A stretch of DNA of 64,000 nt from Chloroflexota bacterium (GTDB taxonomy: Bacteria; Chloroflexota; Anaerolineae; Anaerolineales; Villigracilaceae), in assembly GCA_021414245.1 (NCBI GenBank), contig JAIOOU010000010.1:1-64000 (forward strand), given 5' to 3'. Positions 13,525-64,000 of this stretch are shown here, piece after piece. The translations under genes and the position numbers were made by a program. Numbering within the stretch: position 1 is the stretch's first letter; the number at the start of each line of letters is the position of its first letter. Below the pieces are notes generated by a model. That model was not told the DNA's origin. It saw only the letters and a list, made by a program, of their open reading frames with translations, and did no database searches.

Positions 13525-15336
13525 ATGGGTTTCTTTGCCGGACTGGACGACGAAAAATACGACCGCCAATATACCGACCGGGTCCTGACCAGCCGTATTG
13601 TCGGCTTCTTCAATACGCAGGTCAATCGGCTTTTGATCTCTTCGGTCATCATCATTATTCTTGCCATTATCGGGGCGGCCCTGCCCGTAATCGTCAGCCG
13701 CATGGTGGATATGCTCAGCGAGCGACCCTCTCTGCAGGCCATCACCCTGGTGGGACTGACCCTGATGGGAGTTGGAGTCGGCTTGTGGGGACTGAACTGG
13801 GCGCGGCGGAGTCTGATCGTGCGCGCAGTCGGGGATGTGGTCCTCGAGCTGCGCAAGCGCGCCTTCCGCGCCGCCGCCGAGCACGACCTCTCCTTTTACG
13901 ATCAATTCTCGTCAGGCAGGATCGTCTCGCGCATCACCTCGGACACGAACGACTTCGGGCAGCTGGTGGTGATCATCACCGATGTGGTTTCGCAAATGAT
14001 CCAGGCCATTATTCTGGGAGTGGTGCTCTTCCGGACTGAATGGCGCCTGTCTCTGCTTCTCCTGTCATTCATGCCGTTCATCTTCGGGGTGGCAGCCGGC
14101 TTTCGCGCGCTGGCGCGCGTGGTCACCAAACGCGGCATGAAAGCCATGGCGGATGTCAACGCGGCCATCAAGGAAACCATCAGCGGCATCTCGATCGCCA
14201 AAAACTTCCGCCAGGAAGACAGCATCTTCAAATCCTTCGACGAGTCGAACCAGCAGTCCTATCAGGTCAACATCCGGCGCGGTTTTGTGCTTTCGCTGGT
14301 CTTCCCCACATTGAATGCCCTCTCGGGAGTTTTTGTCGGCATCCTGATCTATGCGGGCGGCATGAGCGCCGAGCAGGGTCTGGTCAGCATCGGCGCTTGG
14401 TATCTGTTCATCATGAGCCTGGACCAGTTCTTCTTCCCGGTTCTGAACCTGACTTCATTCTGGGCGCAAATCCAGGGAGGTCTCTCAGCCGCAGAAAGAG
14501 TCTTCGCCCTGATCGACGCGGATCCGAATGTCGTTCAGAAGGAAAAGCAGGATGTGCCGCGGCTGAAAGGCGAGATCAAATTTGAAAATTTCGATTTCAG
14601 TTATACGGATAAGGAACCGATCCTGCGCAACTTCAATCTGGTCATCCGACCCGGGGAGACTCTCGCCCTGGTCGGGCACACAGGCGCGGGCAAATCCTCC
14701 ATCGCAAAATTGATCGCGCGTTTTTACGAATTTCAGAACGGAAATCTATGCATAGACGGGCGGGACATCCGCACCTTCGACCTCGGCCAATATCGGCGCC
14801 AGTTGGGGATCGTTTCACAGGTGCCCTTCCTTTTCTCCGGCACGGTGGCGGATAACATCCGCTACGCCGCGCCCGGCGTGCCGGAAGAGGAGATGCTCAA
14901 GCTCGCCAAAAAGATCGGGGACGGGGAATGGCTGGAAACCCTGCCGGACGGCCTGCACACCGAAGTCGGCGAACGCGGAAACCGCCTGTCCATGGGCCAG
15001 CGCCAGTTGGTGGCTTTGATGCGCGTGCTCGTCCAGAATCCCGCCATCTTCATCCTGGATGAGGCCACCGCCAGCATTGATCCCTTCACCGAATGGCAGA
15101 TCCAACAGGCGCTAAATCTCATCTTGAAAAACACGACCAGCATCCTGATCGCACACCGCCTGTCCACGGTCAAAGCCGCGGACCGAATCGTGGTCATGCA
15201 AAAAGGCACGATCATTGAGGAAGGCAGCCACGACGGGCTGTTGACCCGCGGCGGTCACTACGCTGAACTGTACAACACTTATTTCAGACATCAAAGCCTG
15301 TCTTATGTAGAACAAGCCAGAGAGATCATTAAATAA
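13525..15336 (+). CDS. ABC exporter half-transporter B (permease-ATPase, canonical Walker B)
   Basis: This is the second half of the exporter (603 residues). Six transmembrane helices lie in residues of about 35-325. The ATPase domain has Walker A GHTGAGKSS, Q-loop SQVPFLFSGTVADNI, Walker B FILDEATASID with the catalytic Glu, and H-loop IAHRLSTV. The signature is LSMGQRQL, with Met replacing the second residue of the usual LSGGQ. In a heterodimer its Walker A/B would pair with the canonical signature of the first subunit, giving one active site and one degenerate site. It lies 63 bp downstream of the first gene in the same direction and ends at a strong terminator. AGGAAAGAG precedes the ATG. 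Confidence 0.93.
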   Translation: MGFFAGLDDEKYDRQYTDRVLTSRIVGFFNTQVNRLLISSVIIIILAIIGAALPVIVSRMVDMLSERPSLQAITLVGLTLMGVGVGLWGLNWARRSLIVRAVGDVVLELRKRAFRAAAEHDLSFYDQFSSGRIVSRITSDTNDFGQLVVIITDVVSQMIQAIILGVVLFRTEWRLSLLLLSFMPFIFGVAAGFRALARVVTKRGMKAMADVNAAIKETISGISIAKNFRQEDSIFKSFDESNQQSYQVNIRRGFVLSLVFPTLNALSGVFVGILIYAGGMSAEQGLVSIGAWYLFIMSLDQFFFPVLNLTSFWAQIQGGLSAAERVFALIDADPNVVQKEKQDVPRLKGEIKFENFDFSYTDKEPILRNFNLVIRPGETLALVGHTGAGKSSIAKLIARFYEFQNGNLCIDGRDIRTFDLGQYRRQLGIVSQVPFLFSGTVADNIRYAAPGVPEEEMLKLAKKIGDGEWLETLPDGLHTEVGERGNRLSMGQRQLVALMRVLVQNPAIFILDEATASIDPFTEWQIQQALNLILKNTTSILIAHRLSTVKAADRIVVMQKGTIIEEGSHDGLLTRGGHYAELYNTYFRHQSLSYVEQAREIIK

Positions 15337-60685: not shown

Positions 60686-62158
60686 TTAACCAAACATGCT
60701 CAGGAAAACAGGTGTGATGGCCGGGTCGAAATGAATCCCGGACTGGTCGCTGATGTATTTCATGGTGTCCGTCTGGGACCAGGCGGAACGGTATGGGCGC
60801 TCGGAAGTGAGCGCATCGTAGACATCCACCAGCGAAAACAGGCGTGCAGCCAGCGGAATATCCTCTCCGGCCAGATGGTCGGGATAGCCGGAACCGTCCC
60901 ATTTCTCGTGATGAGAACGAGGAATGGCCAGAGCGGGCACCAGATGTTCGATGGGCGAAAGCAATTCGACTGCGATCAACGGATGGCGGCGCATGACCAC
61001 CCATTCCTCCTCGTTCAACGGGCCGGGTTTGAGCAGGATATTATCCGGAATGGCCACCTTGCCAATGTCGTGCAAAACAGCGCCGCGGCAAATGTGACCG
61101 AGCTCGGGCTGCGAAAAACCCATGCGGCCGGCCAGCTGATAGGTCAACTCGGTGACGCGGCGGGAGTGTTCCTCGGTTTCCTTATCACGCAGGTTAATTG
61201 CACGCGACCAGCCCTCAATGGTCTTGTCGTAGGCCATGGTCAGCTCGAAATTGGCTGACTGCAAATTCTTGAAGAGCATGGCGCTGTCGATCGCGATCGC
61301 AGCCTGGCCTGCCAGCATGTTCATGAAGTTCAGCCAGTCCACATCTGATTCAAGGAGGGCGCGATGGAAGATTTCGAGCACACCCACCGGCTGTCCCTTC
61401 GCGAAAAGCGGCACGGCATAATAGGCCCTGAAATCCTCCTCGGCCAGCATGGGCGAGCGCAGGAAGGATGTCTTGCGGGTTCTCAAATTGGGAATGTAAA
61501 AAACCTTGCGTTCCGAAACTGACTTTCCGGCGTACTCTTCGCCGATGCGCAGGCGGGTGTACTGCAAAGCCGGAGTGTTAAAGCCCGAGCCAGCCGCGAA
61601 CTCAAGGTATTCAGTATGCGGATCAAACAGCAGGATGCAGGCCGCATCGATCTGGAGCTGCTCGCGAACGTGATCAAGGATCACAGCCAGGGTGGCGCCC
61701 AGGTCCAGACCGGACGTGATTGCCAGATCAATGGAACGCAGGGCGGCCAGTTTGTTGAGTTGATGTTTGATCTTTTCTTCGGATCGTTTGTAGCGCGTAA
61801 TATCCCGCACGAACATGATGCTCTGGTCGTTATTGACCGAGACCAGGCGGGCTTCATACCAGCACTTGCCGGCAGGGGTGGGCAGATAATATTCAACAAA
61901 ACTGACCTTGCTGCCCGCACGCAGCTTGCTCAACACGTCGGCAATGCGCCTGCCTACTGCCGGGGGCAGGACATCCTGCATTCTGCGCCCCAAAAATTTC
62001 TCCGGAGGCACGTACAGGTGGGTCGTATTGCCGGCCTTGTAATCCAGAATCATCCCGTCTGCATTCATGACAAACAACAAATCATTAAAAGCCTGGAAGA
62101 CGGCATCCAGTCTTTGATCGGAATCAGGCAGGTTTCGCAGGGAAAATTCTGTGATCAT
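60686..62158 (-). CDS. PAS-GAF-HD-GYP phosphodiesterase
   Basis: The protein (490 residues) has a PAS domain (about 15-130; VFQAFNDLLFVMNADGMILD, VSFVEYYLPTPAGKCWYEAR), a GAF domain (about 145-305; ALRSIDLAITSGLDLGATLA, FFAKGQPVGVLEIFH-like text), and an HD-GYP domain (about 310-480). The latter has VLHDIGKVAIPDNILLKPGP, HHEKWDGSGYP and the Asp-Val-Tyr-Asp-Ala-Leu segment. HD-GYP enzymes hydrolyse c-di-GMP. No membrane segment is present, so it is soluble. It is the last gene of the peptide cassette, 70 nt after the 92-residue gene, and may be cotranscribed. Confidence 0.93.
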   Translation of the reverse strand: MITEFSLRNLPDSDQRLDAVFQAFNDLLFVMNADGMILDYKAGNTTHLYVPPEKFLGRRMQDVLPPAVGRRIADVLSKLRAGSKVSFVEYYLPTPAGKCWYEARLVSVNNDQSIMFVRDITRYKRSEEKIKHQLNKLAALRSIDLAITSGLDLGATLAVILDHVREQLQIDAACILLFDPHTEYLEFAAGSGFNTPALQYTRLRIGEEYAGKSVSERKVFYIPNLRTRKTSFLRSPMLAEEDFRAYYAVPLFAKGQPVGVLEIFHRALLESDVDWLNFMNMLAGQAAIAIDSAMLFKNLQSANFELTMAYDKTIEGWSRAINLRDKETEEHSRRVTELTYQLAGRMGFSQPELGHICRGAVLHDIGKVAIPDNILLKPGPLNEEEWVVMRRHPLIAVELLSPIEHLVPALAIPRSHHEKWDGSGYPDHLAGEDIPLAARLFSLVDVYDALTSERPYRSAWSQTDTMKYISDQSGIHFDPAITPVFLSMFG

Positions 62159-62228: not shown

Positions 62229-62507
62229 TTAATACGTGCTGCTCAGAGAACGATTGACCTGCTTGGCCAGGTCGGAAAGCGAATTGGCCCGAATGGAGAC
62301 GATCAGGTCGCGTTCCTCGCGGGTAAGGGGAAAGGTCTCGCCGAGGTAACCTTTTTGCAGGGCAACCTGCGGGTCCTGAAGCAGCATGGAGCAGAATTGT
62401 TTGTTGACGACAGCGGCGGCAAACACCCGGCTGATCCCGGATGAAACGGTGGCTGTGGATGTGATATTCATCGGCAGGGTATTTTGGAAAGTAAGTGGAG
62501 CGATCAT
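62229..62507 (-). CDS. Small conserved-looking protein with C-terminal helical motif, 92 residues
   Basis: I do not recognise a named family with certainty. The N-terminal third is Thr/Ser-rich (MNITSTATVSSGISRVF), and residues of about 35-85 read as FCSMLLQDPQVALQKGYLG and FPLTREERDLIVSIRANSL, which recalls the leader-like helices of NHLP or Os1348-type peptides of natural-product clusters (Leu-x-x-Asp-Pro, then an Arg/Glu-rich helix). No cleavage site of the Gly-Gly type is seen. The ATG overlaps the DUF5317 stop by ATGA, so it is translated from the same mRNA. A role as substrate or partner of the peptide system is inference from position. Confidence 0.75.
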   Translation of the reverse strand: MIAPLTFQNTLPMNITSTATVSSGISRVFAAAVVNKQFCSMLLQDPQVALQKGYLGETFPLTREERDLIVSIRANSLSDLAKQVNRSLSSTY

Positions 62508-63091
62508 GATTGAACACCTCTAGTCATAAATTGAATGTGAATGGAAGATCCGGGCGCCTGTCGTGCAAGCATCCAAAACGCGCCGAGGGCGATCAAAACG
62601 TCACCGAAGCTGAAGGCAGCCCGGGAGGGGAACCAGGCCGGGGTCAGGAAACGATCCGCAAGCCATTCGAAACGGGTATCCTGCGGGTGCAGGAGAATGT
62701 CCTTTGGGCCGATGCGGCTTCCGGTTTGGACATCCAGAAGTCTCTCCCGGGAAACAAGCTGGCCGGCTGTGTCCGGACTGACCGGCATGAAGCCGCTGTT
62801 GGCCGCCATGACCAGCAGGTTGAGTGCCACACCCCAAATAAGGATGGGCATGCCCGCAGTGCGTCGGTTGAGCCAGGCAAAGATCAAAAGCAGGGCCTGG
62901 GTGGTCAAGAGGCCGGCCGCGACCCAGCCATTGGAAAGTCTTGGAAGGGAAACCACTGTGAACTGCAACAGGAAGGCGAAAAAGGCCAGCCAAAACCAGC
63001 TGAGTTCGGGGATGCGGTAGGGGCTTCCTTGAATTCGCGCCCACAGCCAGCCTGCCAATAATCCACATGCGAGGGAAAGTAATAAGATCAT
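62504..63091 (-). CDS. DUF5317 membrane protein
   Basis: The protein (195 residues) has about five membrane helices, with ILLLSLACGLLAGWLWARI at the start and the family motif NLLVMAANSGFMPVSPDTAGQL near residue 100, then RIGPKDILLHPQDTRFEWLADRFLTPAWFPSRAAFSFGDVLIALG, in which a conserved loop precedes the final helix. It matches DUF5317, known from Actinobacteria and Chloroflexi without a defined function. Its ATG directly follows the stop codon of the 47-residue peptide gene (TAA ATG), and its stop overlaps the next gene. Processing or export of the peptide is a hypothesis from the tight coupling. Confidence 0.85.
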   Translation of the reverse strand: MILLLSLACGLLAGWLWARIQGSPYRIPELSWFWLAFFAFLLQFTVVSLPRLSNGWVAAGLLTTQALLLIFAWLNRRTAGMPILIWGVALNLLVMAANSGFMPVSPDTAGQLVSRERLLDVQTGSRIGPKDILLHPQDTRFEWLADRFLTPAWFPSRAAFSFGDVLIALGAFWMLARQAPGSSIHIQFMTRGVQS

Positions 63092-63235
63092 TTATATACC
63101 GGGGCCACCACCATCCAACGGAGCGCCTGCGCTAACCACCAACATGGCGAGGGCGATAATCGCCAGGATCATTTGGATGTGCTGACGGTTGATCTTTTGA
63201 GCAGAGAAGGCGAGGAGTGTGAGTTTGTTTTTCAT
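63092..63235 (-). CDS. Short hydrophobic peptide gene, 47 residues, candidate signal peptide precursor
   Basis: This frame is below the usual ORF size but is well supported: ATG at 63235, AAGGA about 10 nt upstream, and a stop codon that touches the DUF5317 ATG. The product has a basic N-terminus (MKNKLTLLAFSAQKINRQH), a hydrophobic helix of about 16 residues (residues 22-37, MILAIIALAMLVVSAG), and a short polar tail ending APLDGGGPGI. The VSAG/APL junction resembles a signal peptidase or membrane-protease cleavage site, which would release a tail of about ten residues. I know of no named family. It is the first gene of the cassette downstream of a SARP-type regulator and could encode a pheromone or modulator. 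Confidence 0.7.
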   Translation of the reverse strand: MKNKLTLLAFSAQKINRQHIQMILAIIALAMLVVSAGAPLDGGGPGI

Positions 63236-63280
63236 GGTTTTGATATCCTTTTGATGAATTTGGTTTGTATGATTGCTAAA

Positions 63281-63329
63281 ATATTACACCCCCCCAGGCT
63301 TCAAAACAGGCTTCAAAATGGCCTTAAAA
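63281..63329 (-). promoter_or_regulatory. Candidate SARP-type operator and promoter of the peptide cassette
   Basis: On the minus strand three direct repeats, TTTTAAGGCC (63320-63329), TTTTGAAGCC (63309-63318) and TTTTGAAGCC (63297-63306), are spaced 11 and 12 bp. Ten bases separate the last one from TAATAT (63281-63286), a -10 box. SARP proteins are known to bind such direct repeats over the -35 region, about 8 bp before the -10 box. Confidence 0.62.
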
Positions 63330-63333
63330 TCAA

Positions 63334-63366
63334 CCAAAAAACAGCCCGGTTTGGGCTGTTTTTTGG
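63334..63366. terminator. Bidirectional terminator after the SARP gene
   Basis: CCAAAAAACAGCCC (63334-63347) pairs with its complement (63353-63366) around GGTTT, with A- and T-runs. On the minus strand it ends the SARP gene (stop 18 nt upstream), so the peptide cassette needs its own promoter. Confidence 0.9.
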
Positions 63367-63383
63367 AAAAATCTACATTTTCT

Positions 63384-64000
63384 CTAGATTATGAGCCGTT
63401 GATACAGGTCCCGGGTCTCCTTGGTGGGTGGGAGCCCGAGCTGGCGTTGCATGGTTTGCTCGCAGATCTGATAGGTTCTCATCACGGAAGCACGATCCCC
63501 CAGGCGGTGATAAATCTGCATGGACAGGGAGTAGGCCGCCTCAAAGGTCAGGTTGTAATCCAGGGCGCGCTGGCAGGCAGCCAGGGCCAGCTCGGGCCGG
63601 GCCTGTTTTTGGAAGAGTTCAGCCAAGGCAATCAAGGCCGAGAGGTAGGCCTGACTGAGGCGCTCTCGTTCCAAGCTGGTCCAGTCAGCATAGATGTCCT
63701 TTAAAAAAGGCCCGTGTACAAGATCGACCGCCTTCTGATAAAACTCGGTTTGTTCCCCCAACCTGGTGGACGATCTGGCCCGATCCAGGAAGGATTCAAA
63801 GGCCTCGACATCGTATTCATAGTCCAAGGCATGATTAAAACCATAGTAAATATCGTCAAAGGCGATCACATCCTGGCCGACCGCGCGTCTCAGGCGATAG
63901 ATCTCATTTTTAAATCGAAGTTTTAATTTTTGGGGATCATCCACATCCGGCCAGAGGGCCTCCCCGACCTGTTCCTTGGTGAAGGATTTCCGGCTGGTAA
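63384..64000 (-). CDS. SARP/BTAD-type transcriptional regulator (5' end beyond the window)
   Basis: The frame is open to the end of the window, so only the C-terminal part is seen. Reading from 64000, a winged-helix end is visible (SFTKEQVGEALWPDVDDP, KLRFKNEIYRLRRAVGQDV), typical of OmpR-type SARP DNA-binding domains, followed by a bacterial transcriptional activation domain of tetratricopeptide-like helices (AFESFLDRARSS, LLALACQRALDYNLTFEAAY-like text, YQICEQTMQRQLGLPPTKET). The protein ends right after BTAD, so the DNA-binding and BTAD part is C-terminal; an ATPase or sensor domain may precede it outside the window. SARPs activate secondary metabolite and peptide genes in Actinobacteria. 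Here the cassette downstream carries matching direct repeats. Confidence 0.88.
   Translation of the reverse strand, partial: TSRKSFTKEQVGEALWPDVDDPQKLKLRFKNEIYRLRRAVGQDVIAFDDIYYGFNHALDYEYDVEAFESFLDRARSSTRLGEQTEFYQKAVDLVHGPFLKDIYADWTSLERERLSQAYLSALIALAELFQKQARPELALAACQRALDYNLTFEAAYSLSMQIYHRLGDRASVMRTYQICEQTMQRQLGLPPTKETRDLYQRLII

Follow-up and report, generated by a model that had tools for sequence, protein, structure and literature searches.

The small frame at 63092-63235 (minus strand) of the 64,000-nt window, by which we mean the whole stretch of DNA analysed here (Chloroflexota bacterium, GCA_021414245.1, contig JAIOOU010000010.1), is a real and conserved gene. It belongs to a widespread family of short glycine-rich peptides that sit beside, and appear to be switched on by, a large TPR-containing SARP regulator, and it may therefore be part of an undescribed bacterial peptide signalling system. 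The recurring unit comprises this regulator with a putative NTPase part, a promoter-like region with two 12-bp direct repeats 8 bp from a -10-like hexamer, one or more peptide genes, an optional DUF5317 gene, a gene for a small protein of the Os1348/NHLP type and, often, a gene for an HD-GYP protein. The layout recurs across the class and, less often, beyond it. The promoter anatomy and the association of the genes are well supported by sequence, whereas activation by the regulator, secretion of the peptide, its sensing and the role of DUF5317 are inferred.

The peptide gene and its neighbours

The features of the locus are as follows.

63092..63235 (-), the 47-aa small peptide gene, encoding MKNKLTLLAFSAQKINRQHIQMILAIIALAMLVVSAGAPLDGGGPGI, with a basic N side, a hydrophobic helix and the tail GAPLDGGGPGI
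63246..63252 (-), a ribosome-binding-site-like AAAAGGA, ending 10 nt before the start codon
63281..63286 (-), a -10-like hexamer TAATAT, 8 bp after the repeat box
63295..63318 (-), a putative SARP-type box of two 12-bp direct repeats, TTTTGAAGCCTG
63334..63366 (-), a terminator-like hairpin after the SARP regulator gene (consensus match; 0.7 expected in shuffles)
63384..64000 (-), the C-terminal part of the 1073-aa regulator, the gene running on to contig position 66605, outside the window
62504..63091 (-), DUF5317, a 195-aa membrane protein and an optional member of the module
62229..62507 (-), a 92-aa NHLP-clan (Os1348-like) small protein
60686..62158 (-), a PAS-GAF-HD-GYP protein, a frequent last member of the module

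The initial annotation had described a frame with a ribosome binding site, a hydrophobic helix and a Gly-rich tail, lying behind a SARP regulator and with its stop codon touching the DUF5317 start, and this observation is confirmed. The TAA directly abuts the ATG of the DUF5317 gene, DUF5317 itself is confirmed by profile search (PF17248, E 8e-29), and the gene upstream on the same strand carries a BTAD (SARP) domain. For the peptide, no Pfam family reached its cut-off and no NCBIfam family matched.

Among the 61 closest genomes, own genome included, DUF5317 occurs in 27 genomes and 28 loci, and a homologous short frame precedes it in 28 of 28, one of which (L006; L and G numbers are our labels for loci and genomes) is cut by a contig end and seen as a partial frame. 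The shared core is KINRQHIQ-(TM helix)-GxGAPxDGGG. In an alignment of 28 rows from 27 loci, one locus having two copies, M1, V33, G37 and A38 are invariant and K14, Q21, L29, G35 and P39 are nearly so. Conserved residues are written with different codons (A38 with four, G44 with four), and pairwise dN/dS is below 1 in all 205 usable pairs of 378, those with dS between 0 and 1.5, with a median of 0.29, which indicates purifying selection. The absence of comparable frames in related genomes, or random substitutions including stops, had been named beforehand as grounds for rejecting the gene, and neither was found. It is thus very unlikely that the frame is an untranslated or merely regulatory leader that couples translation to DUF5317; its contact with the DUF5317 start would fit such a role, but its dN/dS, the varying codons of its invariant residues and its presence without DUF5317 speak against it. 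In 28 of 28 rows the N side of the hydrophobic stretch is more positive than the C side, which fits an N-in/C-out orientation.

The regulator carries a BTAD domain at its C-terminus (PF03704, 54.4 bits against a cut-off of 22.1) and TPRs (PF13424, 83.7 bits against 30.1). At the N-terminus NTPase hits were sub-threshold (AAA_16, 22.7 bits, below its cut-off of 32.6), although a GYGKTSLL P-loop is visible in the sequence, and no Pfam hit at E<=0.001 was returned for an OmpR-type DNA-binding domain next to BTAD. In the 61 genomes, a close SARP ortholog (E<=1e-170) is present in all 27 with a confident peptide hit (E<1e-9) and in one more, G033, as a fragment at a contig end. Apart from second pieces of split orthologs, the next matches listed are at E 1e-107 or weaker, the full-length ones at about 26-30% identity. 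The own genome has no close paralog of the regulator, the other four hits having E of about 2e-4 to 6e-4.

The third gene belongs to the Os1348/NHLP clan, since 30 of 30 aligned members match NF038399 at E<=0.01, although the protein of the window scores 28.8 bits, below the NCBIfam cut-off of 40. An 85-aa solved chain, PDB 6lk7, which we take to be Os1348, matches at E 4.7e-5. A fold search with a weak model of the NHLP protein (pLDDT 69) gave nothing significant. DUF5317 gave a confident helical model (pLDDT 93.5), but a fold search found no PDB match at E<=0.001 (best Z 5.9, to an unrelated chain) and a sequence search found no relative in the PDB. We had considered DUF5317 as an LspA-like peptidase because of motif spacing, but this was borne out neither by the order of helices in the model nor by the fold search, although a missing match does not exclude the fold.

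Distribution and composition of the module

Laying out 60 loci showed a recurring order of SARP regulator, peptide or peptides, DUF5317, NHLP-like small protein and HD-GYP protein. The loci were chosen because they held DUF5317/peptide, SARP or NHLP hits, so the counts describe such loci and not genomes at large. Five modules in this set have peptide, SARP and NHLP but no DUF5317 (L114, L116, L123, L134 and L137), the last of which (on contig C7 of G018) is a second, diverged SARP-peptide-NHLP-HD-GYP module in a genome that also has the DUF5317 type (L038). In the same set, L112 has a peptide beside a SARP on the other strand and L121 a peptide-like frame without SARP, while in L128 and L107 NHLP lies before DUF5317. 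In L212, L213 and L218, SARP-NHLP loci, a 162-180-aa protein with a shared '(P)VP(I/V)R..' region follows NHLP instead of HD-GYP.

Coming from the other side, 33 of 40 loci picked by an NHLP hit, our choice and mostly from families without a strong peptide hit, have a SARP C-terminus upstream, and of the 7 without one two are contig ends under 1 kb. Of 20 distant SARP paralogs, 10 have NHLP downstream and the other 10 do not, L204-L208, for example, having unrelated neighbours. A short ORF of 25-110 aa with at least three Gly in its last 14 residues lies in the SARP-NHLP gap in 51 of 52, 9 of 10 and 28 of 33 loci of the three sets (88 of 95 loci), as against 13, 3 and 7 on the antisense strand and 9.1, 2.8 and 11.3 expected in block shuffles. 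Over all 98 gaps, in which L109, L261 and L272 are counted twice, the numbers are 91 of 98 against 24 antisense and 23.4 in shuffles, and 7 gaps have no such ORF by this rule. Gly-tailed ORFs are therefore not rare in the controls, and single cases prove little. The 27-codon frames ending CPPGAPPPGGGGW[SF] before NHLP in L214 and L217, in two genomes, are perhaps a further peptide type or chance.

DUF5317 lies near 66 of the 98 gaps, and many of the 32 without it still have the peptide. Thus, the description of the peptide as locked to DUF5317 holds among the 61 closest genomes (27 of 27) but not beyond them. For the same reason we consider it unlikely that the peptide is a single-pass membrane micro-protein working as a subunit or regulator of DUF5317, even though the overlap or near-contact of the two genes in the genus and their co-occurrence would favour this possibility.

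In genome samples, peptide-HMM hits at E<=0.01 were obtained in 58 of 396 class genomes, some of them in long frames, and we took hits at E 0.001-0.1 inside long frames as chance. NHLP hits were obtained in 175 of 396 class genomes and in 107 of 400 genomes across the phylum, class members included. The named relatives are mostly Anaerolineales MAGs. Of nine loci outside the class (L298, L299, L301-L306 and L308), 3 have a SARP C-terminus upstream on the same strand, 3 have DUF5317 and 2 a Gly-tailed peptide: L298 shows SARP, peptide, DUF5317 and NHLP, L308 shows peptide, DUF5317 and NHLP, and the other seven lack a Gly-tailed peptide by that screen. Outside the phylum, one DUF5317 locus in Clostridia (L315) shows no SARP, NHLP or Gly-tailed ORF by the same screen.

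Promoter anatomy, other boxes and repeat precursors

Between the terminator-like hairpin and the peptide gene lies TTTTGAAGCCTGTTTTGAAGCCTG, 8 bp before TAATAT. A simple scan found no sigma-70 type -35/-10 pair, as would be expected of an activator-dependent promoter. A box with up to 5 mismatches was found in 24 of 28 DUF5317 loci (not in L006, L010, L023 and L028), and in 24 of 24 a TAnnnT hexamer starts exactly 8 bp after it. For SARP promoters, repeats 11 or 22 bp apart have been reported, with the 3′ repeat 8 bp from the -10 (PMC10936776), so the spacing to the hexamer agrees with this description while the 12-bp period in this genus departs from it. In 57 genus genomes, at <=2 mismatches, the box occurs in 32 and a backward-read control pattern in none, and the 13 genus genomes without a confident peptide hit have no box. 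Five genus genomes with the peptide also have no box at this threshold (G003, G004, G030, G034 and G237), but three of the loci concerned that we read have boxes with 3 mismatches (L007, L009, L018 and L026 are such loci).

In 68 loci outside this genus and most of its family, exact 8-mer direct repeats occur at period 11 in 12 loci and at period 12 in 17, against at most 4 for any other period from 8 to 30 and 0.3 or fewer in shuffles. This test left out all of L029-L048 save L036 and L044, as well as ten named loci, because relatives would repeat one event, and some of the repeats it lists look like low-complexity sequence. Box sequences differ between families while the spacing recurs, as expected if each regulator binds its own site.

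The own genome (G000) has three perfect boxes plus one overlapping near-match. One box precedes this operon. Another (L149, contig C14, box at 13653-13676) lies about 130 nt before a 3382-aa frame with RHS repeats, SpvB, Laminin_G_3 and DUF11 domains and a signal-peptide-like start. The third (L148, contig C6, box at 762980-763003) precedes a 223-aa frame without Pfam hits, which is followed by frames that by eye look helicase-, DUF262- and methylase-like. In relatives, boxes precede further giant, secreted-looking RHS/SpvB proteins (L179 and L182, making three genomes of the genus), a CHASE3-HD-GYP protein (L183; L190 looks alike), a histidine kinase (L181), an HU-like protein (L187) and, after a perfect box, a 165-aa protein without Pfam hits that resembles the 223-aa one (L185; ..MAKV[RK]NN..). 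This putative regulon is inferred from boxes alone.

Three distant loci, representing three lineages, have internal repeats instead of the membrane peptide: L209 with four SYPIGGGIGSGPQA-type units, L215 with four NQPRGGGIGTGPLF-type units and L284 with five RTPS[GA]PSGWGG units. Codon columns that vary only synonymously, against those with an amino-acid change, number 5 and 2 of 14, 11 and 2 of 14, and 8 and 1 of 11, respectively. Units kept at the amino-acid level while the DNA drifts suggest that the unit itself is the functional product, as in repeat pheromone precursors. However, the three precursors show no membrane helix or signal sequence by eye, so export is unexplained there. None of the three has DUF5317 near the gap, but neither do many membrane forms. 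Several loci carry two or three whole peptide genes in tandem. Repeated propeptides have been described for Rap, NprR, AimR and PlcR systems (PMC9765709), and tandemly duplicated ones have also been reported (PMC11343458).

Interpretation and comparison with known systems

Our preferred reading, which we hold only tentatively, is that the frame is the small-peptide component of an autoregulated module. The sequence data show the gene, its conservation, the module and the anatomy of the promoter. From the latter and from co-occurrence it is strongly inferred that the neighbouring regulator binds the 12-bp repeats and activates peptide, DUF5317 and NHLP, and perhaps also HD-GYP. By contrast, it is merely inferred that the peptide is inserted N-in/C-out, that its Gly-rich tail (about GAPxDGGGxx) is released outside, and that after re-uptake the tail is sensed by the TPR/NTPase part of the regulator, closing a positive feedback loop. 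The regulator would then switch on other box-bearing genes, among them those for giant RHS/SpvB proteins and signalling proteins. As a guess, DUF5317 would be an optional membrane partner in maturation, transport or immunity, and the NHLP protein a cytoplasmic accessory. Release of the tail is supported only indirectly, by charge topology, whole-gene tandem copies and internally repeated precursors. No dedicated exporter or protease was recognised in the module, and although the genome has oligopeptide-binding proteins and M50 proteases, which would permit re-uptake and cleavage, these are common (11 and 14 of 14 control genomes), so this support is weak.

The interpretation in the initial annotation, that the tail is released and that DUF5317 takes part in its processing, export or sensing within an undescribed peptide signalling system of Anaerolineae, is therefore partly supported. 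A signalling role is plausible, but nothing found here shows such a function for DUF5317, and the more constant partners are the SARP regulator and the NHLP-type protein, the latter of which had not been mentioned. A bolder version of our reading, possible but in our view less likely than not, is a phylum-wide class of peptide quorum sensing in Chloroflexota. In it, short Gly-tailed precursors, either membrane-anchored GAP..GGG tails or 4-5 tandem Gly-rich units, would be pheromones read by giant NTPase-TPR-SARP regulators, with NHLP proteins and DUF5317 as maturation or export partners, and would control giant secreted RHS proteins and HD-GYP/kinase signalling.

In the literature library that we searched, we found no description of the module, and the word DUF5317 occurred in none of its papers. 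Two genome surveys of TPR-receptor peptide signalling deal with Bacillota, and the words Chloroflexi and SARP do not occur in their main texts. The module would give an abundant, mostly uncultured bacterial class a candidate peptide signal, receptor, operator sequence and regulon that can be read from genomes. It also places two families of unknown function, DUF5317 and Os1348-type NHLP proteins, in a concrete setting, and it bears on how small proteins next to large SARPs, such as AfsS, act.

The NHLP neighbour leaves room for a RiPP-like or bacteriocin product, in which the Gly-rich peptide would be a core, the NHLP protein a leader or carrier in trans, and DUF5317 would serve export or immunity. 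Loss of Os1348 lowers antibiotic activity in Pseudomonas sp. Os17 by a mechanism that was left unclear (PMC7726476), and some peptide tails contain Cys (L107, L117, L127, L132, L259, L261 and L276; GGCC, SGCC, CWTC, GGCGCP and the like), which might form disulfides or be modified. Nevertheless, we consider this unlikely, as most peptides have no Cys and no RiPP-modifying enzyme was recognised beside the module in the layouts, in which only SARP, NHLP, DUF5317, HD-GYP and PAS/GAF were screened for by profile. Os1348 lies with predicted modification and efflux genes (PMC7726476), while its clan member here lies with SARP, peptide and DUF5317.

The same wiring exists in AfsR-afsS of Streptomyces, where a large NTPase-TPR-SARP regulator activates the adjacent small-protein gene through direct repeats 8 bp from the -10, and where AfsS acts in a way not yet known (PMC10936776, PMC10972967). 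In the present module, the domain order is reversed, with SARP/BTAD at the C-terminus, the repeats are of 12 instead of 11 bp, the peptide has a membrane helix and a Gly tail, and NHLP, DUF5317 and HD-GYP genes are neighbours. This analogy supports our chief rival explanation, which we find doubtful but not negligible, namely that the regulator responds to another cue and the peptide is an output of the circuit acting in or at the membrane, or in the cytoplasm in the repeat forms. The high conservation of the peptide within the genus would agree with this, and AfsS is not known as a secreted signal. Internal repeats of one Gly-rich unit and tandem gene copies are easier to understand for a released unit, but AfsS too has internal repeats, which would weaken this point.

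Finally, RRNPPA peptide quorum sensing of Bacillota (Rap-Phr, NprR, PlcR and Rgg-SHP) shares with the module a short propeptide, here a putative one, next to a TPR-bearing regulator, with a basic N-terminus, a hydrophobic middle and a C-terminal tail, and some of its propeptides are internally repeated (PMC9765709). The 47-aa peptide, encoded by the next gene after the regulator, falls within the 10-100 aa expected of an adjacent propeptide. In contrast, the regulator has 1073 aa and not the 250-500 aa of the RRNPP_detector criterion (PMC10075063), and the module has a SARP output, a putative NTPase domain and extra operon genes. The module therefore misses one criterion of RRNPPA systems, receptor size, although it may work like one.
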